Source of the DNA: Thermoanaerobaculia bacterium
Lineage (GTDB): Bacteria; Acidobacteriota; Thermoanaerobaculia; Thermoanaerobaculales; Sulfomarinibacteraceae
Reading direction: 5' to 3'
Assembly (NCBI GenBank): GCA_027061805.1
Contig: JAMOWA010000020.1
Span: 1-56,246 of the forward strand
Length of the DNA stretch: 56,246 bases
Position 1 is the first letter of the stretch; each line of letters opens with the position of its first letter. The notes under the pieces were generated by a model, which made no database searches, was not told the origin of the DNA, and saw nothing but the letters and a program-made list of their open reading frames with translations. The position numbers and the translations under genes are program-made. Shown here in pieces: positions 8,200 to 56,246 of this stretch.

Positions 8200-10137
8200 A
8201 TGACGACAACTCTCGACGCTCTTCAGCACGCCCTCTCCCAGAACAACCGCGAGACGGCCCGGGCCGCCCTGGGCGAGCTGATCCGGAACGCACCCGGGGT
8301 GCGCGATCCAGCCCACCACCTGGCGCTGGGTGCCGCCGCGGAGGAGCTCGGGGCCTGGGAGGCCGCGGAGACGGCCTACAACCTGGTGCTGCGGGAGGAC
8401 GCGGCACATCCCGTGGCCCTGGAACGGCTGGCGGAGCTGGCAGCCGAGGCCGGTGACCTGGAGAGTGCGGCCATCCGGCGCGAGCGCCTGGCGGAGGCCC
8501 GGCCGGACGATGTGGAGAACCTCAAGGCATTGTTGCGTCTCTACCAGCGGCTGGGGTGGCGAGAGCAGGTGGAACGGATGGCCGGGAGGCTCGAGACCGC
8601 CGGGGTGCGGCTTCCGCGTTCCGGGACGCTGGAGGCACCGGTGCCGGCCGGAACGGAGGCAACGGAGGAGGAGGTCTCGTCATCTCTCCTGGAGCGGGTG
8701 GTGAACCCTCCCGATGCCGATGTGGCCCGCTTCCTTTCGCTCTTCTCGGGGAGGGAGGACGTGTACGCCCGTCAGTGGTACAACCCGAGGAAGGGCATTG
8801 CGGGGTACTCGCCGGTCGAGGAGCCGCTCACGGCCCGGGTGGTGCGGCGGCATCTCTTCGGTGACCTCACCGTGGGCGTCTATCCCATCCGGCTGGACGG
8901 GACGGTGGTGTTCATGGCGCTGGATCTGGACCTCACCCGGGCCGCCATGGAATGGGCCCGCCGGGGCCGGGAGGAGGCGGCCTCGGTGCGCCGGAACCTC
9001 GAGACGGCGGTGGCCGCGGCCCTGGATGCCTCGGAGAAGGCCGGCCTCACTCCTCTCGTGGAGGACTCAGGGTACAAGGGGCGGCACCTGTGGTTCTTCC
9101 TGGAGCAGCCGGAGCGCGTCACCGTGGTCCACTCGGTGATCCGGGCACTGGTGCGCTCCTTCGAGGAGCAGGTGCCTGCGGGTGTCGCGGTGGAACACTT
9201 CCCGAAGCAGGCGCGCCGTGGCGGCAAGGGCTACGGCAACCTCATCAAGCTGCCCCTGGGGGTCCACAGGCGGACGGGCCGGCGGGCATGGCTCCTGGAC
9301 GGAAGCGGGAAACCCCACCAGGACCCCTTCGGCCTGCTGCGCATGGTGCAGAGGCTGGGCCACGGTGCCCTCATGGTGGTGGCCGAGCGGCTGGGTGAGA
9401 CGGTGGGAGCTCCGCCCCTGGAAGCTCCCTGGGAGGGAGAGGAGACCCTACCGGCGCCGCCGCCCCCCGCGCCGGTCACGGATCCCGGCGTCCAGGCCGC
9501 GGTGCCACCCGCCTGGACCGGGGCGGACTTCGAGCGCCACCCGGTCATCGCCCACGTGCTGGCCCGCTGTCCTGTGCTCGCCGAGATCGTCCGGCGGGGC
9601 ATCGAGGATCGGAGCCTGGAGCACGACGAGATGATCGTGCTCCAGCAGACCTTCGGCTACCTGCCCGGTGGTGTGGCGGCGAGCAACTACGTGCTGGAAC
9701 GTGCTGTCGGGATCGGGGAGGACCGGCACCTCAAGTCGCCCTTGCGGGGCAATCCCATCTCCTGCCCGAAGATCCGTCAGAGGGTGCCGCACATCACGTC
9801 CAGGGTGGCATGCCGCTGCGAGTTCCCGGAGGACGTGGACCATTACCCCACACCCGTCCTCCACCTGAGAAGCGCCCCGCAGGAGGGGGCCGTTCCGGAA
9901 GGGGATTCGAGGGGTGACCTGGAGGGCCTGGCCCGCCGTTTCCTGACCCAGGCGGCCCTGGTGGAGGCCGCGCGGAGGGACCTGGCCGCCCTGGAGACGG
10001 CACTGGCCGGCCAGCTCGCGGCCGCTGGCGGTCTTCTGGTGGTGGACGGGGTCCAGTTGCATGTGGAGGTGCGGGAAGGCGTGCCCCACGTGGCTTGGAG
10101 CAAGAAGGAGGACAGCCGGAAGGAGAAGGGTCAGTGA
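8200..10137 (+). CDS. CRISPR-associated primase-polymerase (TPR + AEP + PriL-like Cys module)
   Basis: This 645-residue protein is an archaeo-eukaryotic-type primase-polymerase of the kind reported beside cas1 and cas2 in type III loci (CAPP). Residues about 1-130 are helical repeats of TPR type. The catalytic core follows: motif I LDLDLT with Asp242 and Asp244, motif II SGYKGRH at 290-296, and motif III around Glu332 (VEHFPK). Family members can make primers and fill gaps, and a role in spacer acquisition has been proposed. Beyond a Pro-rich linker (about 405-435), the C-terminal region has Cys457, Cys522, Cys538 and Cys540, spaced like the four Fe-S cysteines of the PriL primase subunit; that assignment is my inference. 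The ATG follows AAAGGAGG. cas1 lies 277 bp downstream. Confidence 0.8.
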   Translation: MTTTLDALQHALSQNNRETARAALGELIRNAPGVRDPAHHLALGAAAEELGAWEAAETAYNLVLREDAAHPVALERLAELAAEAGDLESAAIRRERLAEARPDDVENLKALLRLYQRLGWREQVERMAGRLETAGVRLPRSGTLEAPVPAGTEATEEEVSSSLLERVVNPPDADVARFLSLFSGREDVYARQWYNPRKGIAGYSPVEEPLTARVVRRHLFGDLTVGVYPIRLDGTVVFMALDLDLTRAAMEWARRGREEAASVRRNLETAVAAALDASEKAGLTPLVEDSGYKGRHLWFFLEQPERVTVVHSVIRALVRSFEEQVPAGVAVEHFPKQARRGGKGYGNLIKLPLGVHRRTGRRAWLLDGSGKPHQDPFGLLRMVQRLGHGALMVVAERLGETVGAPPLEAPWEGEETLPAPPPPAPVTDPGVQAAVPPAWTGADFERHPVIAHVLARCPVLAEIVRRGIEDRSLEHDEMIVLQQTFGYLPGGVAASNYVLERAVGIGEDRHLKSPLRGNPISCPKIRQRVPHITSRVACRCEFPEDVDHYPTPVLHLRSAPQEGAVPEGDSRGDLEGLARRFLTQAALVEAARRDLAALETALAGQLAAAGGLLVVDGVQLHVEVREGVPHVAWSKKEDSRKEKGQ

Positions 10138-10414: not shown

Positions 10415-11491
10415 ATGTATTTCGTCGTGAACGAGGGAGGCGCTCGCCTCGCCTGCGAGGGGGAACGCCTCCGGGTGCTCCGCGAGGGGAAGGTGGTCCA
10501 GGAGGTACGTCTCCAGGACCTGGAGGGCGTGCTGGCCCTCCGTGCGGTGGGCCTCACTGCCCGCGCGGCCCGGAGTCTGTTGCGCCACGGCATCGAGGTC
10601 ACCTTCCTCGATACACAGGGCCGCTTCCTCGGGCGCCTGTCGGGGCCGGGCTCCCGGAACGCGGGGCTGCGCCTCGCGCAGGTCCGCAGGGCCCTTGACG
10701 AGCCGTTCCGGCTGGCGCTGGCCGCCCGGTTCGTCGAGGGCAAGCTGAGGAACCAGCGGGCGGTTCTGCTGCGGTACCGACGCAGGCACGACCGCGAGGC
10801 GATCCGGGACGCGGCCGGCCGGCTCCGGATCCTCGCCGAGCGGACGGGGGAGGCCGCGGACCTCGACGAGCTGATGGGGATCGAGGGGGCCGGTTCGCAG
10901 GTGTACTTCTCGGTCTTCGGCCGGCTGATCCGGAACCCGCTGTTCTCCTTCTCCGGAAGGAACAGGAGACCGCCGCGCGATCCCGTGAACGCCTGTCTCT
11001 CCTTCGGCTACACCATTACGGGGGCCATCATCGAGGGTGAGGTGGCCGGGGCCGGTCTCGATCCGGCGCAGGGGTATCTGCACCGTCCGGCGTGGAACCG
11101 TCCCTCGCTGGCACTGGATCTGCTGGAGGAGATGCGGGCCCCCGTGGTGGACTCCCTGGTGCTCACGCTGATCAACAGGAGCCAGCTGGGGCCAGCAGAT
11201 TTCGGACCGCCGGGCAGCAGGGTGGAGGAGGACGCCGGAGAGACCTCGCCGTGGCTGGAGGAGGATCGGGAACCCGCTCCAAACCGGGAGGGAGCCGTCC
11301 ACCTGGGTCGAACGGGGCGCCCGGTGTTCCTCAAGGCGCTTCTCGACAGGTTGCGGGAGCCGCGGCTGCACGTTCCCACGGGGCAGCAGCTCGAGATCCG
11401 TGAGATCTTCCGGAGGCAGGTGTGGAGCCTGGTCCGGGCCATCACGGAGGGAGACCCTGCCCTCTACGTCCCGTGGCAGGTGGAGGGTTGA
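10415..11491 (+). CDS. cas1: CRISPR adaptation integrase Cas1
   Basis: Cas1 is the integrase that inserts new spacers at the leader end of the array, acting as a complex with Cas2. The 358-residue product has all the family landmarks: Glu157 in the GIEG segment, His223 in YLHRP, and SLALDLLEEMRAPVVD with Asp235 and Glu238 at the third metal-ligand region, so the active site is complete. The N-terminal beta-rich domain begins at MYFVVNEGG. A GGAGGAGG site precedes the ATG. A stretch of about 45 residues after RSQLG (residues 255-300, rich in Pro, Gly and Glu) is an insertion relative to compact Cas1 proteins. cas2 begins three bases after the stop. No reverse transcriptase domain is fused to it. 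Confidence 0.95.
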   Translation: MYFVVNEGGARLACEGERLRVLREGKVVQEVRLQDLEGVLALRAVGLTARAARSLLRHGIEVTFLDTQGRFLGRLSGPGSRNAGLRLAQVRRALDEPFRLALAARFVEGKLRNQRAVLLRYRRRHDREAIRDAAGRLRILAERTGEAADLDELMGIEGAGSQVYFSVFGRLIRNPLFSFSGRNRRPPRDPVNACLSFGYTITGAIIEGEVAGAGLDPAQGYLHRPAWNRPSLALDLLEEMRAPVVDSLVLTLINRSQLGPADFGPPGSRVEEDAGETSPWLEEDREPAPNREGAVHLGRTGRPVFLKALLDRLREPRLHVPTGQQLEIREIFRRQVWSLVRAITEGDPALYVPWQVEG

Positions 11492-12720: not shown

Positions 12721-15365
12721 GTTCCAATAGATGACCCGATGAAAAGGGGATTACGACCAAGTTCTGGGCTGCGTTCTCCCAGGCGTCGGCATCGGTTCCA
12801 ATAGATGACCCGATGAAAAGGGGATTACGACCCGCGTGCTCCCACGCGCCCCTCTCCGTGAACCCAGTGTTCCAATAGATGACCCGATGAAAAGGGGATT
12901 ACGACCCTGGCGTGCCCTTTACCGAGTCCTGATTGCCTCAAAAGTTCCAATAGATGACCCGATGAAAAGGGGATTACGACCGCGTGCTCCCACGCGCCCC
13001 TCTCCGTGAACCCAGTGCGTTCCAATAGATGACCCGATGAAAAGGGGATTACGACATCAGCTCACGCGCATGCCGCGCGTCACGCGCCACGTTCCAATAG
13101 ATGACCCGATGAAAAGGGGATTACGACCGGGTTGCCCTCACGTGTGCGTGCGCCTGGCCAACCAGGTTCCAATAGATGACCCGATGAAAAGGGGATTACG
13201 ACAGCCACCGCACGCGCCCGCACGGCATCACGTAGCCGGTTCCAATAGATGACCCGATGAAAAGGGGATTACGACTGTACGGGCAGCCCGTGGAGTGGTT
13301 GTGGCGGGAGATGGTTCCAATAGATGACCCGATGAAAAGGGGATTACGACTCTCGCTCGGCCCGTACCACTTACGACGTTGCATGATGTTCCAATAGATG
13401 ACCCGATGAAAAGGGGATTACGACGTCCACGACCTGCCAGCGCCCATCGTCCACAGCATGGTTCCAATAGATGACCCGATGAAAAGGGGATTACGACCCA
13501 CCCCCGACCGTCACCGTCACGGTCGGGGGGCAATGTTCCAATAGATGACCCGATGAAAAGGGGATTACGACTCGACCAGCGTCAACCGCTGATCGGGGTT
13601 GTAACAGGGGGTTCCAATAGATGACCCGATGAAAAGGGGATTACGACTCGACAGACCACCAGCCGCCGACCACGACAGTCTCGCGTTCCAATAGATGACC
13701 CGATGAAAAGGGGATTACGACATTGACAGTTGATTCTGGCACGAGTTCGACGGTCATGTTCCAATAGATGACCCGATGAAAAGGGGATTACGACGCACTC
13801 ATACGGGCGACCGTCGAGCTCATCGATGACGTTCCAATAGATGACCCGATGAAAAGGGGATTACGACGAAGGCAGAACTGCAGACTGTCGGCCGTCCCTA
13901 AATAGTTCCAATAGATGACCCGATGAAAAGGGGATTACGACAACGCTCCAGGATCGAGGAGATGATGACCTCGCGGGGTTCCAATAGATGACCCGATGAA
14001 AAGGGGATTACGACCCGGCCGGGCTCATGCGCCCCCCATGTCAAGCAGCAGTTCCAATAGATGACCCGATGAAAAGGGGATTACGACGAGGAACCCCTCA
14101 CGGACGTAGGTCTCAAAAGAGTCGTTCCAATAGATGACCCGATGAAAAGGGGATTACGACCCTTGTCCGTGCCATACACGGCATCGAGATAGAACACGTT
14201 CCAATAGATGACCCGATGAAAAGGGGATTACGACCCGGGCCTTCGTGGTTCACGATGGCGTAGTACATCTGTCTCGTTCCAATAGATGACCCGATGAAAA
14301 GGGGATTACGACTCGAGGGTGCGCACGGCCTCCGCCTCGATGCTGTACAGTTCCAATAGATGACCCGATGAAAAGGGGATTACGACAGCCCCGTTGTCCG
14401 CGATGGCAGTGATCCCGCGCGGGGTTCCAATAGATGACCCGATGAAAAGGGGATTACGACCGCCGGGCGGGAGAGAGCGGAGGAGCAGGTAGTCGTAAGT
14501 TCCAATAGATGACCCGATGAAAAGGGGATTACGACCCGCGTCCACGTCACGGTGGGGGACCCCGTACACGCACGGTTCCAATAGATGACCCGATGAAAAG
14601 GGGATTACGACCCGGACGCCGTCACGGTCCAGTCCTCGCCACCGTACAGGTTCCAATAGATGACCCGATGAAAAGGGGATTACGACCTCCGCGTCCTCAC
14701 GGAACTCACCGGCGGAGACCCGCCTGTTCCAATAGATGACCCGATGAAAAGGGGATTACGACTGGTCACGATGAGATCAACCATTGCCATTGCTTCCCTC
14801 GTTCCAATAGATGACCCGATGAAAAGGGGATTACGACAGCTGATCGAGCAGCGCTTCCGCGATATCCCACCGCCGGTTCCAATAGATGACCCGATGAAAA
14901 GGGGATTACGACTTCAACCACCCCAAATACCTCCAAACTATCCACAACCTTGTTCCAATAGATGACCCGATGAAAAGGGGATTACGACTTCAACCACCCC
15001 AAATACCTCCAAACTATCCACAACCTTGTTCCAATAGATGACCCGATGAAAAGGGGATTACGACCTCATCTCCTCCCTCCCTCCTCATACCACACCATAT
15101 CAAGTTCCAATAGATGACCCGATGAAAAGGGGATTACGACAATCTCATCCAAACTAATCTTCCCCTCCCTAATCATCTTCCAATAGATGACCCGATGAAA
15201 AGGGGATTACGACCCCCCTGCCAGGATGCAGCGATGGTGGTGAGCCCGCTGCGTTCCAATAGATGACCCGATGAAAAGGGGATTACGACCAGTAAGGTTG
15301 ACGGTCGCACGAACCGCAGGAACAAATGGTTCCAATTGATGACCCGATGAAAGGGGGGCCCGGTC
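12721..15365 (+). CRISPR. Type III CRISPR array: 36 repeats, 35 spacers
   Basis: The 37-bp repeat begins GTTCCAATAG, has a middle GACCCGATGAAAAGG and ends GGATTACGAC. Thirty-five copies are complete (one, at 15177, has its first G changed to C); the thirty-sixth, at 15329, is degenerate after the middle and marks the trailer end. Spacers are 36-39 bp. Transcription is expected left to right: the last eight bases ATTACGAC resemble the 5' handles of type III crRNAs, the decayed repeat is at the right, and cas1-cas2 are at the left. Spacers 2 and 4 overlap over 36 bases with a one-base offset; spacers 30 and 31 are identical; spacers 30-33 have no G; spacer 11 is a hairpin. Apparent reading frames through the array are repeat translations only. 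Confidence 0.98.
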
Positions 15366-45432: not shown

Positions 45433-45905
45433 TGGGCCTCTTCCGCATCGCCAAGACCTTCGAGGTGGAGTACGCGCACCGGCTGTCCAGACACCCGGAG
45501 AAGTGCCGCTTCCCCCACGGCCACCGCCTGCGCATCGAGGTGGTGGTGCGGGGCGAGCGCCTGGACGCCAACCACATGGTGGTGGACTACAAGGCGCTGA
45601 AGACCGTGGTGCTCGCGGTGGTCCGGAGGCTGGACCACGCCATGGCCATCAACTCGGACGATCCCCACCGGAAGGCCGTGGAGGCCATGAGCGGGCGGGT
45701 GCTCGTCTTCGAGGGCGCCGACCCCACCTCCGAGGTGGTGGCCCGCTGGATCTTCGAGGAGATCCGGGAGCGCCTGGAATCCGCCGGTGAGGTCACCACC
45801 GGTGACGGCGTCGTCTACTCCCTGCCGGAGGGCCTCCACCTGGAGCGCGTCCGGCTCTGGGAGACCTCCACGTCCTGGGCGGAGTACGAGGCCCATGACG
45901 GCTGA
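45432..45905 (+). CDS. queD: 6-carboxytetrahydropterin synthase QueD
   Basis: QueD converts dihydroneopterin triphosphate to 6-carboxytetrahydropterin, the QueE substrate. The 157-residue product shows the zinc and catalytic residues of the PTPS fold: His in EYAHRLS, the nucleophilic Cys and the HGH pair in KCRFPHGHRLRIEV, and LDHAMAIN. The C-terminal ETSTSWAEY contains the substrate-binding Glu. The gene overlaps queE by one base and the next gene by 11 bases, so all are in one transcription unit. Confidence 0.9.
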   Translation: MGLFRIAKTFEVEYAHRLSRHPEKCRFPHGHRLRIEVVVRGERLDANHMVVDYKALKTVVLAVVRRLDHAMAINSDDPHRKAVEAMSGRVLVFEGADPTSEVVARWIFEEIRERLESAGEVTTGDGVVYSLPEGLHLERVRLWETSTSWAEYEAHDG

Positions 45906-46935
45906 TCCCCCCCTCGTCCCCCCGGAGGCGGTGGCGGACGCACTGGAGGGGATGGCATGGCCGGTGGCCGTCACGGGCGGCACCGGTTTCGTGGGGTCGC
46001 ACCTGGTGGACACCCTCTGTGCCGCAGGGATCCGGCCCCGGGTGCTCGTGCGGGATCCCGCCGCTCCCCGCTGGATCGCGGACCGCGAGGTGGAGTGGGT
46101 CCCGGGCTCGCTCCACGACCCGGAGGCCCTGGAGCGCCTGGTGGCGGGCGCGGGTACCGTGCTCCACCTGGCGGGCGTGGTCCGCGCCCCCTCCGCGGCC
46201 GCCTTCGAGCGGGGCAACCGCCTGGGCACCGCCAACGTGGTGGCCGCGGTCCGCGGGGCCGCCCCGGGGGCGCGGCTGGTGCACGTCTCCTCCCAGGCGG
46301 CGCTGGGCCCCTCGCCGGAGATCGCGGGCCTGGGCCCCGAGGCGGAGCCCCACCCCGTCTCGGCCTACGGCCGGTCCAAGCTGGGCGCCGAGCGGGAGGT
46401 GCAGGCTCTCGGGGACGAGCTGCCCTGGCTGATCCTCCGGCCCCCGGCCATCCACGGTCCCCGGGACACGGACGTCCTCCAGTTCTTCAAGCTGGCGGCC
46501 TCCGGCACGGTGCCGCTGCCCTCGGGGGAACGCTGGGTCACCATGGCCTGGGTGGGCGACGTGGTCCGCGCCGTGCTGGCCGCCGCGGGCGGGAGGGGCG
46601 AGGCGGGGCGGACCTGCCACCTGGGCGAGCCCGAGCCCTACCGCATGCAGGCCATGGTGCGGCTGCTGGCCGAGGCGGGTGGGGTGCGGGCACGGGTGCT
46701 GCCGCTCCCCGGGGCCGTGCTCACGGCCGCGGGGCTTGTGGGAAGCGGCCTCCACCTCCTGGGCCTCCACCGGGTGCCCATGACCCGAGACAAGGCGCGG
46801 GAGCTCCTGGCCCGGCACTGGACCCTGCGGACGCGCGATTCCCTGGAGGCCCTGGGCCTCCATGACTGGACCGAGTTCTTCGACGGGGCCCGGGTCACCT
46901 GGGCCTGGTACCGCAGGGAGGGCTGGCTGCGCTAA
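45895..46935 (+). CDS. NAD-dependent epimerase/dehydratase-like protein, probable ceramide reductase CerR
   Basis: A 346-residue extended short-chain dehydrogenase. The NAD(P) motif is VTGGTGFVGSHLVDTL near residue 26, and the active-site Tyr and Lys are in SAYGRSKLGAER. Homologues next to serine palmitoyltransferase genes in Caulobacter act as CerR, reducing the ketone of oxidised ceramide. Its position directly before the SPT-like gene and the GNAT gene makes that role the best guess; a sugar or steroid dehydrogenase remains possible. The ATG at 45895 overlaps queD by 11 bases. Confidence 0.72.
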   Translation: MTADPPLVPPEAVADALEGMAWPVAVTGGTGFVGSHLVDTLCAAGIRPRVLVRDPAAPRWIADREVEWVPGSLHDPEALERLVAGAGTVLHLAGVVRAPSAAAFERGNRLGTANVVAAVRGAAPGARLVHVSSQAALGPSPEIAGLGPEAEPHPVSAYGRSKLGAEREVQALGDELPWLILRPPAIHGPRDTDVLQFFKLAASGTVPLPSGERWVTMAWVGDVVRAVLAAAGGRGEAGRTCHLGEPEPYRMQAMVRLLAEAGGVRARVLPLPGAVLTAAGLVGSGLHLLGLHRVPMTRDKARELLARHWTLRTRDSLEALGLHDWTEFFDGARVTWAWYRREGWLR

Positions 46936-46969
46936 GATGCCCGGCAGGGAAGGTCCTTCGGGAGGGTTC

Positions 46970-48154
46970 GTGGACGTATTCCAGAAGTGCTTTGACTTCG
47001 AAGATGCCGATGTGGCCCGCAGGATGGGATTCTATCCCTACTTCCGGGAGATCGCGTCGGCTCAGGATCCCGTGGTCACCATGGACGGCCACGAGCTGGT
47101 CATGCTGGGCTCCAACAACTACCTGGGGCTCACCAGCCATCCGGAGGTCAAGGAGGCCGCGGCGCGGGCCGCACTGGAGTACGGGAGCGGCACCGCGGGC
47201 TCCCGCTTCCTCAACGGCACGCTGGACATCCACGTGAAGCTCGAGGAGGAGCTGGCCGACTTCATGGGCCGGGAGGGGGTCATCACCTTCTCCACGGGCT
47301 TCCAGGTGAACCTGGGAACCATCTCCTGCCTGCTGGACCGCCGGGACACCGTCTTCCTGGACGCCCTGGACCACGCCTGCATCATCGACGGGGCCCGCCT
47401 GGGCTTCGGCCGCACCGTGAAGTTCAGGCACAATGACATGGCTGACTTGGAGGAGCGCCTCCGCGCCGCGGGCGAGGACCGCGGCAAGCTCATCGTGGTG
47501 GACGGCGTCTTCTCCATGGAGGGCGATCTGGCGCCGCTCCCGGAGCTCGTGGAGCTGAAGCAGCGCTTCGGCGCCCGCCTCATGGTGGACGACGCCCACG
47601 GTGTGGGCGTCTTCGGCGAGCACGGCCGGGGCACGCCGGAGCACTTCGGCCTGGAGGACCAGGTGGACCTGGTCATGGGGACCTTCTCCAAGTCGCTGGC
47701 CAGCGTGGGCGGCTTCGTGGCGGGCGATGCCGAGGTCATTGACTGGGTCAAGCACCACGCCCGGACCCTCATCTTCTCGGCCTCGCCGCCGCCGGCCTCG
47801 GTGGCCTCCGTGCGGAAGGCCCTCGAGATCATCCGCCGCGAGCCAGAGCGCCGGCAGCGCCTGTGGGAGAACACCGCCTACATGCTGCGGGAGTTCTCGG
47901 CGCTGGGCTTCGACACGGGCGACTCGGGCTCTCCCGTGATCCCCCTGGTGGTGGGGGAAGACGCCACGGCCTTCTCCATGACCATGCGCCTGGCCGAGAA
48001 GGGGGTCTTCGCCAATCCCGTGGTCTCCCCGGCGGTGCCGCCGGGGCGGGCCATGATCCGGACCTCGTACATGGCGACCCACACCCGGGAACACCTGGAC
48101 CGCGCACTGGGAGTGTTCGCCGAGGTGGGCCGGGAAATGGGGGTGATCTCCTGA
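46970..48154 (+). CDS. Serine palmitoyltransferase-like alpha-oxoamine synthase
   Basis: PLP enzyme that condenses an amino acid with an acyl-CoA/ACP and releases CO2. The 394-residue product matches bacterial serine palmitoyltransferases better than glycine acetyltransferase or BioF in its N-terminal FYPYFREIASAQDP, MLGSNNYLGLTSHPE, and the C-terminal GREMGVIS. The PLP lysine is Lys241 in GTFSKSLASVGG, with DDAH (207-210) and His135 in DALDHACIIDG around the cofactor. I start at the GTG at 46970 (GGGAGGG upstream) because homologues begin at the equivalent of VDVFQKC; an ATG at 46937 would add 11 unlike residues. The product would be 3-ketosphinganine, the first step to sphingolipids. Confidence 0.82.
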   Translation: MDVFQKCFDFEDADVARRMGFYPYFREIASAQDPVVTMDGHELVMLGSNNYLGLTSHPEVKEAAARAALEYGSGTAGSRFLNGTLDIHVKLEEELADFMGREGVITFSTGFQVNLGTISCLLDRRDTVFLDALDHACIIDGARLGFGRTVKFRHNDMADLEERLRAAGEDRGKLIVVDGVFSMEGDLAPLPELVELKQRFGARLMVDDAHGVGVFGEHGRGTPEHFGLEDQVDLVMGTFSKSLASVGGFVAGDAEVIDWVKHHARTLIFSASPPPASVASVRKALEIIRREPERRQRLWENTAYMLREFSALGFDTGDSGSPVIPLVVGEDATAFSMTMRLAEKGVFANPVVSPAVPPGRAMIRTSYMATHTREHLDRALGVFAEVGREMGVIS

Positions 48155-49296
48155 TGGCAACGCTCGAAGTTCGGCCGGTCCGCGGGCGGGCGCAGCTCGC
48201 CGCCTTCATCGACCTTCCCTGGAAGCTCTACCGGAACGACCCCCTGTGGGTCCCGCCGCTCAAGGCCTCCGTGCGCGAGCTGCTGGACCCGGAGCGGCAC
48301 CCCTTCTACGACGGGGGGAAGGGCGCCGAGCGGGAGCTCTTCCTGGCCTGGGATGGCCGGGACGTGGTGGGCCGCGTGGCCGCCATCCTCAACCACGCCC
48401 ACAACCGCGTCCACGGCGAGAACATCGCCTTCTTCGGCTTCTTCGAGTCCATCGACCGGCCCGACGTGGGGCGGGCCCTGCTGGGCGCCGTGGAGGCGTG
48501 GGCCCGGGAGAAGGGCCTCGATGGCGTCCGCGGCCCGGCCAACCCCTCCACCAACTACGAGTGCGGCCTGCTGGTGGAGGGCTTCACGAGGCCCCCCGTC
48601 CTGATGATGACCTACAACCCCCCCTACTACCAGGGGCTCATCGAGCGGGCGGGCTACGCCAAGGTCAAGGACCTCTACGCCTACATCTCGCCCGTGCACG
48701 GCGCCCACCTGGACCGCCTGATCCGCCTCGCGCAGAAGACACGGGACCGCCACCCCGGGTTCGAGACCCGGGGGGCCAACCTCAAGGAGTTCGAGGGCGA
48801 GGTGAAGCTCGTCCAGGAGATCTACAACGCCGCGTGGGAGAAGAACTGGGGCTTCATCCCCATGACCGACGCCGAGATCCGCTGGATGGCGAAGGAGCTC
48901 AAGCCGCTGGTCCAGGAGGACCTCCTCCGCTTCGCGTTCTGCGATGGCGAGCCCGCCGGCTTCCTCCTGGCCGTCCCCGACTGGAACCCCCTCCTCAAGC
49001 AGCTGGACGGGACCCCCTGGAAGCACCCCATCCGCCTGATCCGCGCACTGCTCACCGCCAGGCCCGAGAAGATGGAGGGTCTCCGCCTCATCACCATGGG
49101 CTTCAAGGAGAAGTTCCGCAAGCGCGGCTTCGAGGGCGTCCTCTTCGCCGAGGGGCTCGAGAAGGCCCTGGAGATCGGCTACAGGTGGTGCGAGTACTCC
49201 TGGATCCTCGAGGACAACGAGCTCACCAAGCGCACCGTCCGCCTCATGGACGCCGACCTGTACAAGAACTACAGGATGTATGAAAAGAGTGTGTAG
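48154..49296 (+). CDS. GNAT-fold acyltransferase, probable bacterial ceramide synthase (bCerS)
   Basis: The 380-residue product is a GNAT-superfamily protein (signature segments LPWKLYRNDPLWVPPL near the start, VRGPANPSTNYECGLL, and a C-terminal WILEDNELTKRTVRLMDAD). A GNAT-like family of this kind was shown in Caulobacter to be the bacterial ceramide synthase that acylates 3-ketosphinganine. Here it directly follows the SPT-like gene, its ATG overlapping that stop by one base, so the same role is inferred. It closes the queE-queD-reductase-SPT-acyltransferase operon. The following 240 bp hold no gene apart from GGGCGTGAGG-type short repeats. Confidence 0.72.
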   Translation: MATLEVRPVRGRAQLAAFIDLPWKLYRNDPLWVPPLKASVRELLDPERHPFYDGGKGAERELFLAWDGRDVVGRVAAILNHAHNRVHGENIAFFGFFESIDRPDVGRALLGAVEAWAREKGLDGVRGPANPSTNYECGLLVEGFTRPPVLMMTYNPPYYQGLIERAGYAKVKDLYAYISPVHGAHLDRLIRLAQKTRDRHPGFETRGANLKEFEGEVKLVQEIYNAAWEKNWGFIPMTDAEIRWMAKELKPLVQEDLLRFAFCDGEPAGFLLAVPDWNPLLKQLDGTPWKHPIRLIRALLTARPEKMEGLRLITMGFKEKFRKRGFEGVLFAEGLEKALEIGYRWCEYSWILEDNELTKRTVRLMDADLYKNYRMYEKSV

Positions 49297-49537: not shown

Positions 49538-50548
49538 ATGCGAATCTGGATGAAGAGGGATGTGTGGATCGCAGCACTTTCGGGTGCACTCATCTTGGCG
49601 CTCTTGCCGTTGACGAACGGTTGCCGGCGGGTTTCGCAGCCCAGGAAACTGGTTCTGGCGTACAACTCCTGGGTGGGTTTCGCACCGATGTTTGTCGCAC
49701 AGGACAGGGGCTTCTTTCGCAAGGAAGGGGTGGAACTCGATCTCCGCCTCATGGAGGACACCGGAGCAAAAGGGGTTGCACTGAAGAGTGGCGATATCGA
49801 TGGAGTGGGCACGACCGTCGATTCGTTCGTCATCCAGGCGGGTCGTGGAGTGCCGGGCAAGATCATGATGGCTTTCGATCAATCCAATGGGGCGGATGGG
49901 ATCGTGGCGATCGAGGAGATCAGGTCCATTGAAGATCTTCCGGGGCACAAGGTGGCCCTCCAACCTGGGTTCGTGGGTCACTTCTTTCTGCTGTACCTGC
50001 TTGATGAGGCGGGTATTGAACCGTCTTCTGTGACCATCGAGCCGATGGAGACCGGCGCAGCAGGGGCAGCCTTCGTTGCCGGCAAGGTGGATGCCGCCGT
50101 CACGTGGGAGCCGTGGCTCTCCAAGGCCAGGGAGCGGCAGGGAGCGCATGTCCTTGTTTCGAGCAGGGAAGAGCCAGGCGTGATCGTTGACGTGTTCGTG
50201 ATGCGTCCCGACGTTCTGGCCGAGCGGCGTTCGGATGTTCTCGCATTCATGCGTGGGTGGTATCACGGCCTGGAATACCTTCAATCGCAACCGGACGAGG
50301 CCCTCCCCATCGTCGCTCGCGTCCTTCATGCGAACGAGTCTGATGTGAAGGAGATGCTCGAGGGCGTGAAGTTCATGAGCCTGGAGGAGAACCTCCAGTA
50401 CTTTGGAACTCGGGAAGAGCCCGGGTTCATCGATCACGTTGTGGATGTGGCAGCGCGGGTATGGCGTGAGGCAGGTTTCCTCGAGAGGAAGGTTGACGCT
50501 TCCACCATCGTGGACCCGGATCTCCTCACGGAGCTGGAGGCGAGGTGA
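49538..50548 (+). CDS. NitT/TauT-type ABC transporter substrate-binding lipoprotein
   Basis: Binding protein of the NMT1/SsuA/TauA class, which carries sulfonates, pyrimidine precursors, nitrate or similar small molecules. The 336-residue product has a signal peptide with lipobox (LILALLPLTNGC), then the family opening LVLAYNSWVGFAPMFVAQDRGFFRKEGVEL, and AAVTWEPWLSKA near residue 190. Substrate cannot be told. The ATG at 49538 has AAAGGAGA upstream. It heads a tightly overlapping five-gene operon; GC is a little lower here than in the preceding genes. Confidence 0.85.
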   Translation: MRIWMKRDVWIAALSGALILALLPLTNGCRRVSQPRKLVLAYNSWVGFAPMFVAQDRGFFRKEGVELDLRLMEDTGAKGVALKSGDIDGVGTTVDSFVIQAGRGVPGKIMMAFDQSNGADGIVAIEEIRSIEDLPGHKVALQPGFVGHFFLLYLLDEAGIEPSSVTIEPMETGAAGAAFVAGKVDAAVTWEPWLSKARERQGAHVLVSSREEPGVIVDVFVMRPDVLAERRSDVLAFMRGWYHGLEYLQSQPDEALPIVARVLHANESDVKEMLEGVKFMSLEENLQYFGTREEPGFIDHVVDVAARVWREAGFLERKVDASTIVDPDLLTELEAR

Positions 50549-51387
50549 GCTCTCACCTGCGTGTTTCACCAGGAGGAGGTCAAGGAGCAGGCTCCTGGTA
50601 CCGTGCCGTCCTGGAGCCGCACCGGCGCATCGCAACGGGAGCTTATGTCGGCCTGGCAGCCGCCAGCTTCGGATTTGTCGTGTTGCTGTGGTCGGTTCTC
50701 ACCTACGGGAGATTCGTCCAGCCATTCTTTCTGCCCTCGCCCGGGAACGTGGCCACCACGGTGTGGGAGCTCTTCACGACCCAGGGCGTCTGGCCGCACG
50801 TTGTTGCCAGCACCTACCGGGTCGTCGTCGGCTGGTTTCTCTCTGCGATCCTGGCAATACCACTTGGTGTGCTCATGGCCTCCTACCATTCCGTGGAGGC
50901 CCTGGCGGAGCCGCTGAACGATGTGATTCGCTACATGCCCGTGGTCGCCTTCGTTCCGCTCACCATCCTGTGGCTGGGAGTGGGTGACGAGCAGAAGATC
51001 GCCGTGATCTTCCTCGGGACCTTCTTTCAGCTTGTCTTGATGGTTGCGGATGCCGTGAGCAAGGTTCCCCGTTCACTTCTCGAGACTGCTCAGACGCTCG
51101 GGGTCGGGAGCCACGAGAGCGTCTGGAAGATCGCACTCCCCGGAGCCTGGCCGATGATCTTTGATCACCTGCGGGTGACCATGGGCTGGGCATGGTCATA
51201 CCTGGTTGTTGCCGAGCTTGTTGCCTCGAGCCGGGGAATCGGCTTCATGATCATCCAGGCGCAACGTCTTCTCCAGACCCGCGTGGTGATCGCGGGAATC
51301 CTGATTGTCGGTTTCCTCGGACTGGCGTTCGACCTCATGTTCAAGCTCCTCACACCGGTGGTCTGTCCATGGAACAGAAGACACTGA
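50545..51387 (+). CDS. NitT/TauT-type ABC transporter permease
   Basis: The 280-residue inner-membrane subunit has about six hydrophobic helices (GAYVGLAAASFGFVVLLWSVL first) and the EAA-loop for ATPase contact at LLETAQTLGVGSHESVWKIA. LPSPGNVATTVWEL is the characteristic family segment. It starts at a GTG at 50545 overlapping the binding-protein stop (GTGA), and overlaps the ATPase gene by 19 bases. Confidence 0.9.
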   Translation: MSSHLRVSPGGGQGAGSWYRAVLEPHRRIATGAYVGLAAASFGFVVLLWSVLTYGRFVQPFFLPSPGNVATTVWELFTTQGVWPHVVASTYRVVVGWFLSAILAIPLGVLMASYHSVEALAEPLNDVIRYMPVVAFVPLTILWLGVGDEQKIAVIFLGTFFQLVLMVADAVSKVPRSLLETAQTLGVGSHESVWKIALPGAWPMIFDHLRVTMGWAWSYLVVAELVASSRGIGFMIIQAQRLLQTRVVIAGILIVGFLGLAFDLMFKLLTPVVCPWNRRH

Positions 51388-52610
51388 AGCTCGCGCTGGA
51401 ATCCGTTGATTTTCGCTTTGCAGGCGGAATCCATGTCCTGAGGGGCCTCACCTTCGATGTGCGGGAGGGAGAGATCATCGTCATCGTCGGGCCGTCGGGA
51501 TGTGGAAAGACCACACTCTTGCGTGTCATCGCCGGTCTTCTGCAGCCAACCGCCGGCAGCATCTGGATCTCGCAAGAACGCCACGATGACCTCGGGGAAA
51601 TTCGAGGGCCGAGTCGTGAACGGGGCATGGTGTTCCAGCAATACACGTCGTTTCCCTGGCTCACGGTGGCAGGAAACGTTCGTTTCGCTGTCAGGCGGGC
51701 TCGGGGCGGCGGGGAGAAGATCGAGCAACGGGTTCAGGAGCTCATCGACATGGTCGGACTCACGGGGTTCGAGCACGCCTACCCTGCGCAGATCTCGGGG
51801 GGGATGCAGCAGAGAGTGGCGATTGCACGGACCTTGGGTGCCGAGCCGGAGGTGCTGCTGATGGACGAGCCGTTCGGCGCGCTTGATGCCGAGACACGCG
51901 GCGCCCTGCAGAACGAGCTCCTCCATCTGTGGCGTCTCACGGGCAAGACCATCATCTTCGTCACCCACGACATCGACGAGGCGCTCTATCTCGGCCAGAG
52001 AGTGCTGATCCTCACCAACCGGCCGGCACGGGTCGTCGAGGAGATCACGTTCCCCGCTCGGTATCCGCGGGACCGTTACTCGAAAGAGTTCCTTGAGATG
52101 AAACGCCGCTGTCGCAGGATCATCGAGAGGCTCGGCATCACGATCGGGCTGGGCCCGCTGGAGCCGTTTTACTTCCTCTATCTCGGGAAAGAACGCCTGA
52201 TCCTCGGAGATGGTGTCAAGCTCCGCTTCGGCCTTTCCGATGACGAGATACTGATCCGCTCCCGGTTCGGTGACATCGAGGCCTGTATCCGGCCTGCCGG
52301 GAGCGGGCGGCCCCTGCCGGGGTTCGTGGAATGGGCACTGCTGCTCACGTGCGAGGGCATCACGTACGCGCTCTACCTTCGTGAGGACCTGACGGGTGAC
52401 ACCATGTTCCTTCAGACCGTGAACGAGTTTCTCGGAGAGTACAGGGAGCTCGCGGCCGCAGTCAGTGCCCTCTCGATCGAGGACCGGGTCCGGCTGGCGA
52501 GGCAGCGGTTCCCCCACTCGGACCGAGACCTGCGGGACATGATCGTATCCACAGAGTTTCCCTCCTCCCATGGGGACCGGACGACGACGGAAGATCCGGC
52601 GGCATGCTGA
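51369..52610 (+). CDS. NitT/TauT-type ABC transporter ATPase with C-terminal extension
   Basis: The first 245 residues are a standard ABC ATPase: Walker A GPSGCGKTT, Q-loop FQQYTSF, signature ISGGMQQRVAIAR, Walker B LLMDEPFGALD and switch His in FVTHDIDEAL. The remaining 150 residues (from about ITIGLGPLEPFYFL) are an additional domain not found in plain NitT/TauT ATPases; it has no motif I recognise and could sense substrate or regulate activity. The ATG at 51369 lies inside the permease gene's end. The stop overlaps the next gene by seven bases. Confidence 0.88.
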   Translation: MEQKTLKLALESVDFRFAGGIHVLRGLTFDVREGEIIVIVGPSGCGKTTLLRVIAGLLQPTAGSIWISQERHDDLGEIRGPSRERGMVFQQYTSFPWLTVAGNVRFAVRRARGGGEKIEQRVQELIDMVGLTGFEHAYPAQISGGMQQRVAIARTLGAEPEVLLMDEPFGALDAETRGALQNELLHLWRLTGKTIIFVTHDIDEALYLGQRVLILTNRPARVVEEITFPARYPRDRYSKEFLEMKRRCRRIIERLGITIGLGPLEPFYFLYLGKERLILGDGVKLRFGLSDDEILIRSRFGDIEACIRPAGSGRPLPGFVEWALLLTCEGITYALYLREDLTGDTMFLQTVNEFLGEYRELAAAVSALSIEDRVRLARQRFPHSDRDLRDMIVSTEFPSSHGDRTTTEDPAAC

Positions 52611-54304
52611 CCATTCTCGGCATCAACTCGGCCTATCACGAGAGCGCGGCGGCACTCCTCGTGGACGGCCGATGTGTGGCCGCAGCGGAGGAAGAACGTT
52701 TCACGGGAATCAAGCATGCCAAGCGAGCACGCATCGACAATCCCGATGAGCTGCCCGTCCATTCCATGTGCTGGTGTCTCGAACGGGGGGGGCTGCAACT
52801 GGATCAGGTGGACGCGATCGCGTTCTCCTTCTCTCCCGGCCTTCGTCGTGCCAACGTGGGAGTCGATGGAGAATCCGGAGCGGAGGGTTGGGGTACCGTC
52901 GAGGGCGAGCGGGTATTCGAGGACCACCTGCTTGCCGTGCCACGTCGGCTCTCCGAGCTCGCCTCTTCTGACCTCACGGAACGTTTCTTCTGGGTGGAAC
53001 ACCACCATGCCCACGCCGCCAGCGCCTTCTTTCCTTCGCCATATCCATCGGCGGCGATCCTCAGCATCGATGGAATCGGAGAGGTCACGACCACGTGGCT
53101 GGGCCGCGGTGAAGGTATCGACCTGATCAAGGAGGGAGCGATCCGGTACCCCCACTCCCTCGGGCTCCTGTGGGAGAAGATCTCGCTCTTCCTCGGCTTC
53201 GACCGGTACGCCGCCGGTACCACGATGGGATTGGCCGCGTGGGGGCGACCGGGGCGGTACCGGCCCGAGATGGAAAGGCTCCTTCAGGTGGACGAGGGCC
53301 GGTTCCGGGTGGAAGCGAGCCTCGCTCGGCTGCGTTCGGACTCGTTTGCAGCGCTGGAGGGCCTGTTCGGGATCCCGCGGCGGAAACCTGGGGATCCCCT
53401 CGTGCGCGAGCACATGGATGTGGCCGCAGCTCTCCAGGAGGCGACCGAACGGGTGGGAGTGAGCCTCGCGCAATGGCTGCGCGAACGCACGGGAGAAAAG
53501 AGCCTCTGCCTCGCCGGCGGGGTGGCGCTCAACTGCCGGATGAACGAGGCCATCGCCCGGGCAGACCTTTTCGAGAGCATCTTCGTGCAACCCGCGGCAC
53601 ACGACGCGGGAACGGCGCTGGGGGCGGCGCTCTGGGTCTGGCACGTTCACCGGAGAGAGGCACGCCGGTGGACGATGAGCCACGCCTTCCTCGGCCCCGC
53701 GTTCGAACCTGACAGAGCTCTTGGTGCGCTCGAGCGGTTCCGCGGCCGTCTCCGCTGGGAGACGGTGCGCGATCCCGTCGAGGTGGCGGTGGAGCGGCTT
53801 GCGGGTGGAGAATGCATCGGGTGGTTCCACGGACAGCTGGAGTTCGGGCCGCGGGCGCTGGGCAACCGCTCGATCCTGTGTGACCCCAGGCAGGATGGGG
53901 CTGCCCGGCGCCTCAACGAGCGCGTGAAGCGGCGTGAGTGGTTCCGGCCGTTCGCCGGCTCGTTCCTGACGGAGGAAGCTGGAGGCTGGCTGGACCTGGC
54001 GGGCGAGCACCCCGCGTACCGGTACATGACGATGACAGCCGCCATGCGGTCAGGAGAGCTCCCCGGGGTGACCCATCGCGACGGCACATGTCGTCCCCAG
54101 CTTGTCACCCCGAAAGGCTTCACCTCTCTGCGCGCGGTGCTGGAAACGTTCCGTGACGCCGCGGGCGTTCCTGCCCTGCTGAACACATCGCTCAACCTCA
54201 GGGGCCGGCCGCTGGCCGGGCCCCCCTCGGCCGCGCTCCGCTGTCTCCTGGACAGCGAGCTCGATGCCCTGGTGATCCCTCCGTACCTGGTGGAAAGGAC
54301 ATGA
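52604..54304 (+). CDS. NodU/CmcH-family carbamoyltransferase
   Basis: These enzymes transfer a carbamoyl group from carbamoyl phosphate via carbamoyl-AMP to hydroxyls of sugars, antibiotics or other metabolites. The 566-residue product has the ASKHA-fold N-terminal domain: LGINSAYHESAAALLVDG, EEERFTGIKH, and the HHHAHAASAF metal/His motif. The C-terminal domain contains CIGWFHGQLEFGPRALGNRSIL, the typical NodU/CmcH block, and an end NTSLNLRGRPLAG. Residues look intact. It is translationally coupled to the ABC ATPase before it and to the radical-SAM-like gene after it (ATGA overlap), so its acceptor may be the imported molecule or its derivative. Confidence 0.9.
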   Translation: MLTILGINSAYHESAAALLVDGRCVAAAEEERFTGIKHAKRARIDNPDELPVHSMCWCLERGGLQLDQVDAIAFSFSPGLRRANVGVDGESGAEGWGTVEGERVFEDHLLAVPRRLSELASSDLTERFFWVEHHHAHAASAFFPSPYPSAAILSIDGIGEVTTTWLGRGEGIDLIKEGAIRYPHSLGLLWEKISLFLGFDRYAAGTTMGLAAWGRPGRYRPEMERLLQVDEGRFRVEASLARLRSDSFAALEGLFGIPRRKPGDPLVREHMDVAAALQEATERVGVSLAQWLRERTGEKSLCLAGGVALNCRMNEAIARADLFESIFVQPAAHDAGTALGAALWVWHVHRREARRWTMSHAFLGPAFEPDRALGALERFRGRLRWETVRDPVEVAVERLAGGECIGWFHGQLEFGPRALGNRSILCDPRQDGAARRLNERVKRREWFRPFAGSFLTEEAGGWLDLAGEHPAYRYMTMTAAMRSGELPGVTHRDGTCRPQLVTPKGFTSLRAVLETFRDAAGVPALLNTSLNLRGRPLAGPPSAALRCLLDSELDALVIPPYLVERT

Positions 54305-56246
54305 GCTCCATGAATAGTGACGAGACACCCGGATTCGAGCTGTCGGGCGGCCCCGGACAAGACCCTGGCGTGGAGGTCCTGTGGGAACGGCTCCCCAGGC
54401 CCCTGTACCCCGGTGGCCCGCTGCAACGGGTCATGATCCTGGTGGCCGACAGGATGTGCGGGTGGGCCGCCGAGCGCGGACCTTGCACCATGTGTCCCTT
54501 CTGGGGTGGCTGGTGGCCCCATGAAGCCGAGGGTGCTGAACACCCTGAGGAGAAGAACGGGAATGGCAGCGATACCGAAGCAAGAAAGGCGGCGCGGGAG
54601 GATCGCCTGCCGGAGCAGCTCCGGCAGCGGCTCGAGGCGCGGGAGGATCGCCTGCTGGAGCTGCTCCGCCAGCGGCTCGAGACGTGGAATCCGGGGCCGG
54701 AGGCGGAGAGCTGGCGGAGCGAGGGAGACTTCGGTCCCTGGGTGGAGCTCGACATCTTCATCGGAGGTTCATTCCTCAACGAGAAGGAGGTCTCGGCCAG
54801 CCTGGCGGAGCGCCTGCTGCGGGCCGCGGTGAACGGCGTGAGGGCTCACGGCTACGAGGTCACCGACGTGCTCGTGGAGACGCTGCCGGAGTACACGGTG
54901 GAGAAACCCGAGGACCCGAGCGCGGACCCGAGCCCGGATCCGAGCCGGGCCCTCGAGCGTGTCAGGAGTGTGGTCGAGAAGCTTGCCGTTCCCCTCGAAC
55001 CCGGCAGTGTTGCCGAGCGGGTCCTGGGATGGGCCGTCTCGGGAGGGGCCGACCTGTCCGGTGAAGAGCGGTGGCACGTCACCAGGATGCTTCGCGAGAC
55101 CGTCGCGGGCGCTCCGGGTGGCGACAGCGTCCGCGAGGCGCTGCGCGGGCTCCTGAAAGCTGCCTTCGCGTGGGACCCCGCCGGGACGACGGAGGCCCCA
55201 CACGGCCAGACTGAGAGTGGGGACACGGGCTCATCGGGTGACGGGGACTCCTTCTCGGTGAACGCCACCAGGTGGGCCGGGGAGATCGGCGACAAGAGCT
55301 GCACCCACGACCGGTGGTGCCGGACCTGGCGGCAGGTGGTGGAGGCGCTCGTCCCCCTGGCCGTCCGCGAGGAGCCGGATCCGGATTGTGGTGAGAACGG
55401 CCACGACTCCAGTGGCGAGGGAGAGGCGCCTCCCGGGAAAGATGCCGGGAGCGCGCTCGAGCTGCGTCTCCCCCACCTCTGGGTGGCGCTCGGTCTCGAG
55501 TGCCACGATAATGACGATGACAATGACATCCGGTTCGAGAAGCTCAACAAGGCGCCCGTCACCAGGAAACGTGTGACCCAAGCGTTCGAGGTGTTGCGCG
55601 GGAAACACATCGGTGCGATGGTCTACCTCCTCGTTGCTCCCCCGGGCCTGAATGAGAGTACGGCGGCGCTCGAGGACCTTGAGAAAGCGATTGCCTTCGT
55701 CGAGAATGAGGCTGGCAACATGCGCTGGCACGTTCGGTTCGGCCCGGTGATGGTGCGCGAGGGGTCGACCGTGGCCATGATGTTTCGGCGCGGGGAGTAC
55801 ACGCCGCCCCCGCTCGAGCTCCTCTTCGAGGCATGGTTCAAATGGCGCACGAATCCGCGTGTCAGCCTCGTCTACTCCGAGGAGGGGACCGGCTGGCTGT
55901 GGAAGCCGGACATGGAGTTTCCTGACCTGGGAAGCCCCCGGAAGCTCCGCTTCCTCGACGACCTGGCCGTCGTGATGGAGGCCGTCGACTACCTGCTGGA
56001 GGAGTTTCCCCTCCGCTTCTATCAGCTCTTCGTGCGTGCCGATTCCATGCCCGAGCCATGCCCGCCCTCGAAGGATGAAAGGGACCTGCCGAGCGGAAAG
56101 AAGCTCCTGGATCTCCGGCGTCGCCTGCGGATCCTCGAACGTGCAGGGCTCGTGGAGAGGCGGGGTACGATCCTCTCACCCAGGGTGGCGGTGGTCCCCC
56201 GCTTCATGTCCGGCGGGAAGGACGATGGCGCCCCCCCCTCCAAGAA
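54301..56246 (+). CDS. Diverged radical-SAM-like protein (TIGR01210/RaSEA-like), partial
   Basis: An uninterrupted frame of 648 codons runs from the ATG at 54301 (overlapping the carbamoyltransferase stop) off the right edge. It contains a likely [4Fe-4S] motif, Cys53-X8-Cys62-X2-Cys65 (RMCGWAAERGPCTMCPFWGG), matching the GCxxxxxGCTMCGY pattern of the Elp3-like TIGR01210/archaeosine-synthase radical SAM branch. IGGSFLNEKEVSASLAER and GAMVYLLVAPPGLNESTAAL fit the same family's later segments. The family core is broken by large Glu/Arg- and Asp/Pro/Ser-rich insertions (about residues 80-130 and 195-385). The last part ends in a winged-helix-like region (LRRRLRILERAGLVERRG). The 3' end is missing; family is inferred. 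Confidence 0.6.
   Translation, partial: MSSMNSDETPGFELSGGPGQDPGVEVLWERLPRPLYPGGPLQRVMILVADRMCGWAAERGPCTMCPFWGGWWPHEAEGAEHPEEKNGNGSDTEARKAAREDRLPEQLRQRLEAREDRLLELLRQRLETWNPGPEAESWRSEGDFGPWVELDIFIGGSFLNEKEVSASLAERLLRAAVNGVRAHGYEVTDVLVETLPEYTVEKPEDPSADPSPDPSRALERVRSVVEKLAVPLEPGSVAERVLGWAVSGGADLSGEERWHVTRMLRETVAGAPGGDSVREALRGLLKAAFAWDPAGTTEAPHGQTESGDTGSSGDGDSFSVNATRWAGEIGDKSCTHDRWCRTWRQVVEALVPLAVREEPDPDCGENGHDSSGEGEAPPGKDAGSALELRLPHLWVALGLECHDNDDDNDIRFEKLNKAPVTRKRVTQAFEVLRGKHIGAMVYLLVAPPGLNESTAALEDLEKAIAFVENEAGNMRWHVRFGPVMVREGSTVAMMFRRGEYTPPPLELLFEAWFKWRTNPRVSLVYSEEGTGWLWKPDMEFPDLGSPRKLRFLDDLAVVMEAVDYLLEEFPLRFYQLFVRADSMPEPCPPSKDERDLPSGKKLLDLRRRLRILERAGLVERRGTILSPRVAVVPRFMSGGKDDGAPPSK

Follow-up and report, generated by a model that had tools for sequence, protein, structure and literature searches.

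The DNA analysed here, which we call the window, is the entire 56,246-bp contig JAMOWA010000020.1 of a Thermoanaerobaculia bacterium (assembly GCA_027061805.1; G000:C20 in our numbering). At its right end lie five genes for an ATP-binding cassette (ABC) importer, a carbamoyltransferase and the beginning of a giant protein, here called gene 5, that opens with a radical S-adenosylmethionine (SAM) domain. We found that this gene row continues on a second contig, C21, and we tentatively read the whole as a ten-gene operon, with five genes in the window and five on C21, that would import, modify and sense a small molecule, an explanation to which we give slightly less than an even chance. The anatomy of the operon and the fusion in gene 5 are well supported. 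Sensing is favoured because two enzyme domains share a chain with a kinase-like region, and because in related loci the kinase class is retained although importer and enzymes are exchanged. An earlier note on this DNA had suggested that the genes import a small molecule and build a carbamoylated or radical-modified product; import and modification remain part of our reading, and plain biosynthesis now appears less likely than sensing, since the radical SAM part of gene 5 shares its chain with a methyltransferase and a kinase-like region, and a response regulator closes the operon.

A 27-bp tandem repeat marks the end of the window, which falls within gene 5. Its last 30 bases (56217..56246, + strand), one 27-bp unit (KDDGAPPSK) plus 3 bases, are found exactly once elsewhere in the genome, at C21:12951-12980 on the minus strand of that 12,990-bp contig. 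Since C21 holds further units, the assembly evidently broke in the tandem repeat. The frame of gene 5 continues on C21 for 1,416 codons (L064:12988-8738, minus strand), and joining the contigs at one repeat unit gives a protein of 2,052 residues with, in this order, a RaSEA-like radical SAM domain, which makes up the first third, a methyltransferase and an atypical histidine-kinase-like region. We made this join because the shared 30 bp lie in frame with the same polarity and because the genes downstream of gene 5 overlap or abut. Their products have 294, 478, 622, 188 and 276 residues. The 622-residue product has several hydrophobic segments by eye, and the last, of 276 residues, is a response regulator (PF00072, 1.1e-10, 42 bits against a cut-off of 30.2), separated from the next gene on C21 by about 160 bp. 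No Pfam, NCBIfam or PADLOC match above cut-off was obtained for the other four C21 products or for the C21 part of gene 5. The five window genes of the earlier note stand as described, and its reading of gene 5, taken as far as the contig end, has to be extended. Weakly matching, repeat-rich fusion proteins can hide at contig breaks. The C21 part of gene 5 contains in-frame tandem repeats at L064:11935-12178, 10459-10546, 9699-9780 and 12915-12990, with units of 39, 30, 15/30 and 27 bp; these four arrays account for several of the stretches in it that are probably disordered.

In the window, all five genes lie on the + strand and each overlaps the next, by 4, 19, 7 and 4 bases, in agreement with the overlaps of 4 to 19 bases claimed earlier. 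Promoter-like and terminator-like sites in the operon region showed no excess over shuffled sequence. The first gene encodes a substrate-binding protein (49538..50548; NMT1, PF09084, 8e-23) with a lipoprotein-like signal, LTNGC, recognised by eye and with similarity to the taurine-binding protein structure 6ssy (E 9e-15). It is followed by a TauC/SsuC-like permease (50545..51387; BPD_transp_1, PF00528, 1.3e-27), whose top NCBIfam match is TauC (4.7e-44, below cut-off), and by an ATPase (51369..52610; ABC_tran, PF00005, 3.6e-36). Binding protein, permease and ATPase thus belong to the same families as those of the NitT/TauT (SsuABC/TauABC) importers, as had been proposed, but no equivalog cut-off was reached: the binding protein scored 150.5 bits against SsuA_fam, just below the cut-off of 163.5, and 60.7 bits against the taurine-specific model, whose cut-off is 304.25. 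Judged by the importer type, the substrate may be sulfonate-, amino-acid- or pyrimidine-like. The importer further differs from its known counterparts in that the ATPase carries about 160 extra C-terminal residues (about 250-413), close to the 150 estimated before. This extra domain has no Pfam match above cut-off, was found in its own genome only (1 of 148 genomes of the class), and gave an unusable structure model, with a predicted local distance difference test (pLDDT) score of 35.5.

The fourth gene (52604..54304) matches both halves of the NodU/TobZ/GdmN-type carbamoyltransferases above cut-off (PF02543 and PF16861; Carbam_trans_N, 3.6e-50, 171.8 against 24 bits; Carbam_trans_C, 6.2e-52, 176 against 27 bits), which upholds its first assignment as NodU-type. 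It resembles the O-carbamoyltransferases GdmN, decarbamoylnovobiocin carbamoyltransferase and TobZ at E values of about 1e-78 to 1e-69 (solved structures: GdmN, 1.3e-78; TobZ, about 1e-69). His133, His134, His137, Asp156 and Asp334 are invariant with two relatives, and the HHxxHA motif and distal Asp are presumably the metal ligands known from TobZ. Unlike GdmN and TobZ, the gene belongs to an operon with an importer and a kinase-like region rather than to an antibiotic cluster. As a single query against the genome contigs it found no relative; a profile search with alignment A2 gave at least 80 loci, and 17 carbamoyltransferases were found in viral contigs. In a quick tree of 102 rows, it falls in a 7-row clade (Shimodaira-Hasegawa-like approximate likelihood-ratio support 99) with L113 and L106-L110 and adjoins L113 (support 81).

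In L113, a planctomycete locus, the carbamoyltransferase stop overlaps (ATGA) the start of a 327-residue RaSEA-like protein (TIGR01210, 2.1e-13; CX7CX2C) whose similarity to the radical SAM part of gene 5 is at family level only (BLAST E 0.005). Of the 80 carbamoyltransferase loci listed, only L113 has a strong RaSEA-like match; the RaSEA-like profile was run on 122 loci, and L113 itself was among the sequences used to build it. Two weak matches of that profile among the 122 loci, near the carbamoyltransferases L077 and L182, resemble other radical SAM families in their length and in covering only part of the profile, and so do weak TIGR01210 matches that lie 3.3-4.7 kb from a carbamoyltransferase in five genomes; neither group was counted. 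An importer in L106 was rejected as the same system: it lies 6-9 kb from the carbamoyltransferase on the other strand, and its binding protein and permease are 21-25% identical to ours. Ten other pieces of the operon, used as queries against 20 carbamoyltransferase neighbourhoods of the phylum, had no matches beyond generic ABC ATPases, which 3 of the 20 contain.

The nearest carbamoyltransferases lie in nonribosomal peptide synthetase (NRPS) clusters of Polyangium, Scytonema and Mycetohabitans, the solved relatives are antibiotic carbamoyltransferases, and the gene of Photorhabdus adjoins SbnA-like and arginine-metabolism genes. These contexts argue for the main rival of the sensing reading, a regulated specialised-metabolite pathway that would make a carbamoylated, methylated and radical-modified product, with the importer bringing in a precursor or re-importing the product and with kinase and regulator only switching the cluster on. 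However, none of the ten genes was recognised as encoding a scaffold-making enzyme (NRPS, polyketide synthase or precursor of a ribosomally synthesised and post-translationally modified peptide) or an exporter, both enzyme domains of gene 5 sit in one chain with the kinase-like region, and the kinase class is kept in related loci with other enzymes. We therefore regard such a pathway as a serious contender that is on balance unlikely. The Photorhabdus asymbiotica row itself (L107:6929-14313) consists of SbnA-like, argininosuccinate-synthase-like, dimethylargininase-like, carbamoyltransferase and transporter-like genes and is likely a small amino-acid-derived metabolite cluster.

The first 648 codons of gene 5 (54301..56246) encode the radical SAM domain. 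It matches TIGR01210 (RaSEA) at 2.8e-13, and PF04055 was not listed for it at E ≤ 1. The CX8CX2C motif noticed earlier (54457..54495) comprises Cys53, Cys62 and Cys65, all invariant in alignment A1 of 8 rows, and GS[FI][LF]- and LNK-like segments are common to most of these rows. With RaSEA the domain shares the three-cysteine motif, the GS[FI][LF] and NK segments and the order of motifs; it differs in being bacterial, in scoring below the family cut-off, in being fused to methyltransferase and kinase-like regions, and in two large insertions relative to A1, which had been suspected from the sequence. The first (about residues 72-145) includes a 45-bp tandem repeat in two copies (54591..54681) and the second (about residues 200-390; 54910..55470) has no Pfam match. 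A structure model reached a pLDDT of 51.6 overall and about 70-84 in most core blocks. Its top Foldseek matches are Elp3 radical SAM structures (best E 1.3e-3, none ≤ 0.001), and every one of rows 1-37 of a VIA-align search is a radical SAM enzyme (the highest Z, 13.5, extends over 256 residues at 5.0 Å). Because both searches match radical SAM enzymes, a barrel is predicted to be present, and the model supports a radical SAM fold, with a partial (beta/alpha)6 barrel, for the N-terminal part of gene 5. The TIGR01210 affiliation that had been suggested stands as well, though below the cut-off.

RaSEA acts with ArcS on preQ0-lysine, a 7-deazaguanine, in archaeal tRNA, and Elp3-type enzymes also act on tRNA. 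The TIGR01210 similarity and the Elp3 fold matches might therefore point to a salvage route in which a modified nucleobase or nucleoside is imported and altered further. We consider this improbable: the match lies far under the RaSEA cut-off (49.8 against 212.15 bits), weak TIGR01210 matches occur in 103 of 396 phylum genomes with none above cut-off, and the relatives of the carbamoyltransferase modify small molecules. ArcS is described in PMC11298593.

The second enzyme domain, the METHYLTRANSFERASE part of gene 5 (residues 36-260 of the C21 portion), matches stand-alone proteins near related carbamoyltransferases. Such homologues occur in 3 of the 80 carbamoyltransferase loci listed: in Scytonema (L109; E 3e-7) directly downstream of the carbamoyltransferase, and in Polyangium (L108 and L110) on the other strand, about 5 kb away. 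By Pfam, the Scytonema and the first Polyangium proteins are MTS-type methyltransferases, the former also being HemK/PrmC-like by NCBIfam. On plasmid pBRH01 of Mycetohabitans rhizoxinica, a methyltransferase gene overlaps the carbamoyltransferase gene, and its product matches gene 5 at 7e-10 and over a second downstream stretch. A profile of four methyltransferase relatives, with our own sequence excluded, finds gene 5 at 3.4e-10; against the next gene of the operon the same profile gives E 2. The domain carries NPPFEP, which fits the catalytic NPP[FY] and belongs to its homology with the MTS/HemK-type enzymes; its own Pfam match is only Eco57I, at E 0.15. The enzymes in the NRPS clusters are stand-alone, in contrast to the fused domain of gene 5. 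The adjacent carbamoyltransferase and MTS-type methyltransferase of L206:12001-14719 (M. rhizoxinica pBRH01) and L109:10001-12563 (Scytonema) form a small unexplained enzyme pair.

The third region of gene 5 would connect the enzymes to signalling. Residues of about 650-970 of the C21 part match proteins of two other genomes of the phylum, G182 and G021. Used as a query against 297 phylum genomes, the kinase half found itself and two kinase-domain relatives, and a profile placed four genomes in the class (G000, our own, with G021, G083 and G182); a further search around the class of G083 in 5 genomes added nothing. The HNxGxH and N-box-like ENxxRN columns are invariant in the four rows. A profile of the three relatives, with our own sequence excluded, matched four canonical histidine kinases with 91.8% probability, as compared with 0.1-0.2% for three unrelated control alignments. 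HATPase_c scores in the relatives were 13.9 and 15.6 bits against a cut-off of 26.4, and the region is more degenerate in gene 5 than in the relatives. Like two-component systems, the operon has the HNxGxH and N-box-like motifs and a receiver domain above cut-off; unlike them, it has a degenerate G1 box in a kinase-like region fused to enzymes, and a response regulator whose C-terminal domain is without family assignment. The operon may be a variant form of two-component signalling.

The loci of the relatives differ in what precedes the kinase. In G182, a Liv-type permease, two ABC ATPases, a binding protein and a KamA-family radical SAM protein are followed by the kinase; in G083, a Liv-type binding protein, permeases, ATPases, an asparagine-synthase-like gene and an aspartate/ornithine-carbamoyltransferase-like gene take this place (some of the Liv-type assignments rest on visual inspection and on BLAST comparison with our own ATPase). 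The G021 locus opens at a contig edge with a partial lysine-2,3-aminomutase-like radical SAM gene and no importer was seen there; a 20-bp overlap between its contigs C18 and C25 added none. An ABC importer therefore stands ahead of the kinase class in 3 of 4 loci, the fourth being cut by the contig end. The response regulators that close the G021 and G182 loci are 64% alike (in G021 of sigma-54 type by Pfam), and our own regulator is different. These three operons of the class (L194, G182:C240; L193, G083:C128; L192, G021:C25), with their other front ends and receiver/sigma-54 regulators, are observations in their own right, as is a weak segment, 'VIHQGLLDK ... ITSGRG', shared by the C-terminus of gene 5, a 543-residue protein of G182 and the C-terminus of the G083 kinase, thus part of the kinase protein or of a neighbouring gene product, for which no family matched.

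In the operon that we propose, the importer would bring in, or the cell would supply, a small molecule that bears a hydroxyl or an amino group, which the carbamoyltransferase (by O-carbamoylation), the radical SAM enzyme and the methyltransferase would tailor in one complex. The fused kinase-like module would read the product or the occupancy of the enzymes and control the response regulator, and thereby an output. The front-end cassette varies among the relatives while the kinase class stays, as expected of a receptor platform with exchangeable chemistry. Should this hold, import, uncommon enzyme chemistry and signal output would be linked in one protein, bacterial RaSEA-like and NodU-like proteins would gain a shared context, and the binding protein and the regulator targets would offer a handle for finding the molecule. 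A bolder form of the idea, which we think quite unlikely, is a sensor kinase that binds no stimulus directly: a dedicated importer would deliver a precursor, enzymes would convert it covalently (here by carbamoylation, radical SAM chemistry and methylation, the last two in the kinase chain), and the cell would detect the product formed on the receptor. An atypical kinase shared by many such systems, with importers and enzymes in front that can be exchanged, would then constitute a general chemical-sensing platform.

Several points weigh against the sensing reading. Our own kinase-like region has neither HATPase_c nor any other Pfam match and no recognisable DxGxG box, so that the region, on its sequence, may be inactive in gene 5. 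The importers ahead of the kinase do speak for it when set against a control in which 2 of 80 regions (≥ 15 kb), among the matches listed, encoded an importer component (binding protein or permease) of the same types, but this figure is a yardstick rather than a test because the regions were drawn from carbamoyltransferase neighbourhoods and not at random. Beyond the kinase region and the regulator, the back ends of the four loci share little with our own. The TIGR01210, SsuA and kinase matches are all below curated cut-offs, long branches meet in the carbamoyltransferase tree (a program warning), and the join of C20 and C21 rests on one repeat and not on reads. The full gene set was seen in a single genome, and what we say of the ligand, of the product and its chemistry, and of signalling and phosphotransfer is deduced from these gene contents.

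That none of the other genomes and loci searched showed the exact set of five genes could also suggest that unrelated genes lie side by side by chance. We regard this as very improbable. The reading frames overlap throughout, and homologues show repeated linkage rather than accidental adjacency: carbamoyltransferase and RaSEA-like genes are paired in L113, carbamoyltransferase and methyltransferase genes are paired in other phyla as well, and importers precede the kinase class in three loci. By these comparisons of gene order, the linkage is non-accidental.

Relatives of gene 5 are scarce. Against 59 relatives of the genome, its window part matched itself and one weak case (G050, residues 102-243, E 3e-4), over a stretch made up mostly of insertion. 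No match was found in plasmids for this part, the L113 radical SAM protein or the kinases L067 and L194, nor in viral contigs for pieces of gene 5; a Microcystis plasmid match to the C21 part (E 6e-3) has unrelated surroundings and was taken as chance. At the abstract level, with subscription papers outside the scope, the literature yielded no description of the gene set or of the kinase class. The GC content at third codon positions (GC3) is 0.71-0.86 in the operon genes as compared with 0.90-0.97 in the three genes upstream, and the extra ATPase domain is absent from the other 147 class genomes searched; horizontal acquisition of the operon is likely. A mosaic build, rarity (4 of 297 genomes), the lower GC3 and a giant repeat-rich protein would also suit a conflict or defence system, with a modified small molecule or nucleotide as effector under a large phosphorelay. 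This, too, has little to recommend it, since PADLOC 2.0.0 matched 0 of 7 of our proteins and gave one weak spbK match (E 0.0038) among 10 proteins of related loci, and no nuclease, toxin or NTPase effector was recognised. The genes directly upstream of the operon (window 45874-49296), with much higher GC3, are sugar-epimerase-like, serine-palmitoyltransferase-like and GNAT-fold, and look like a separate lipid-related operon.

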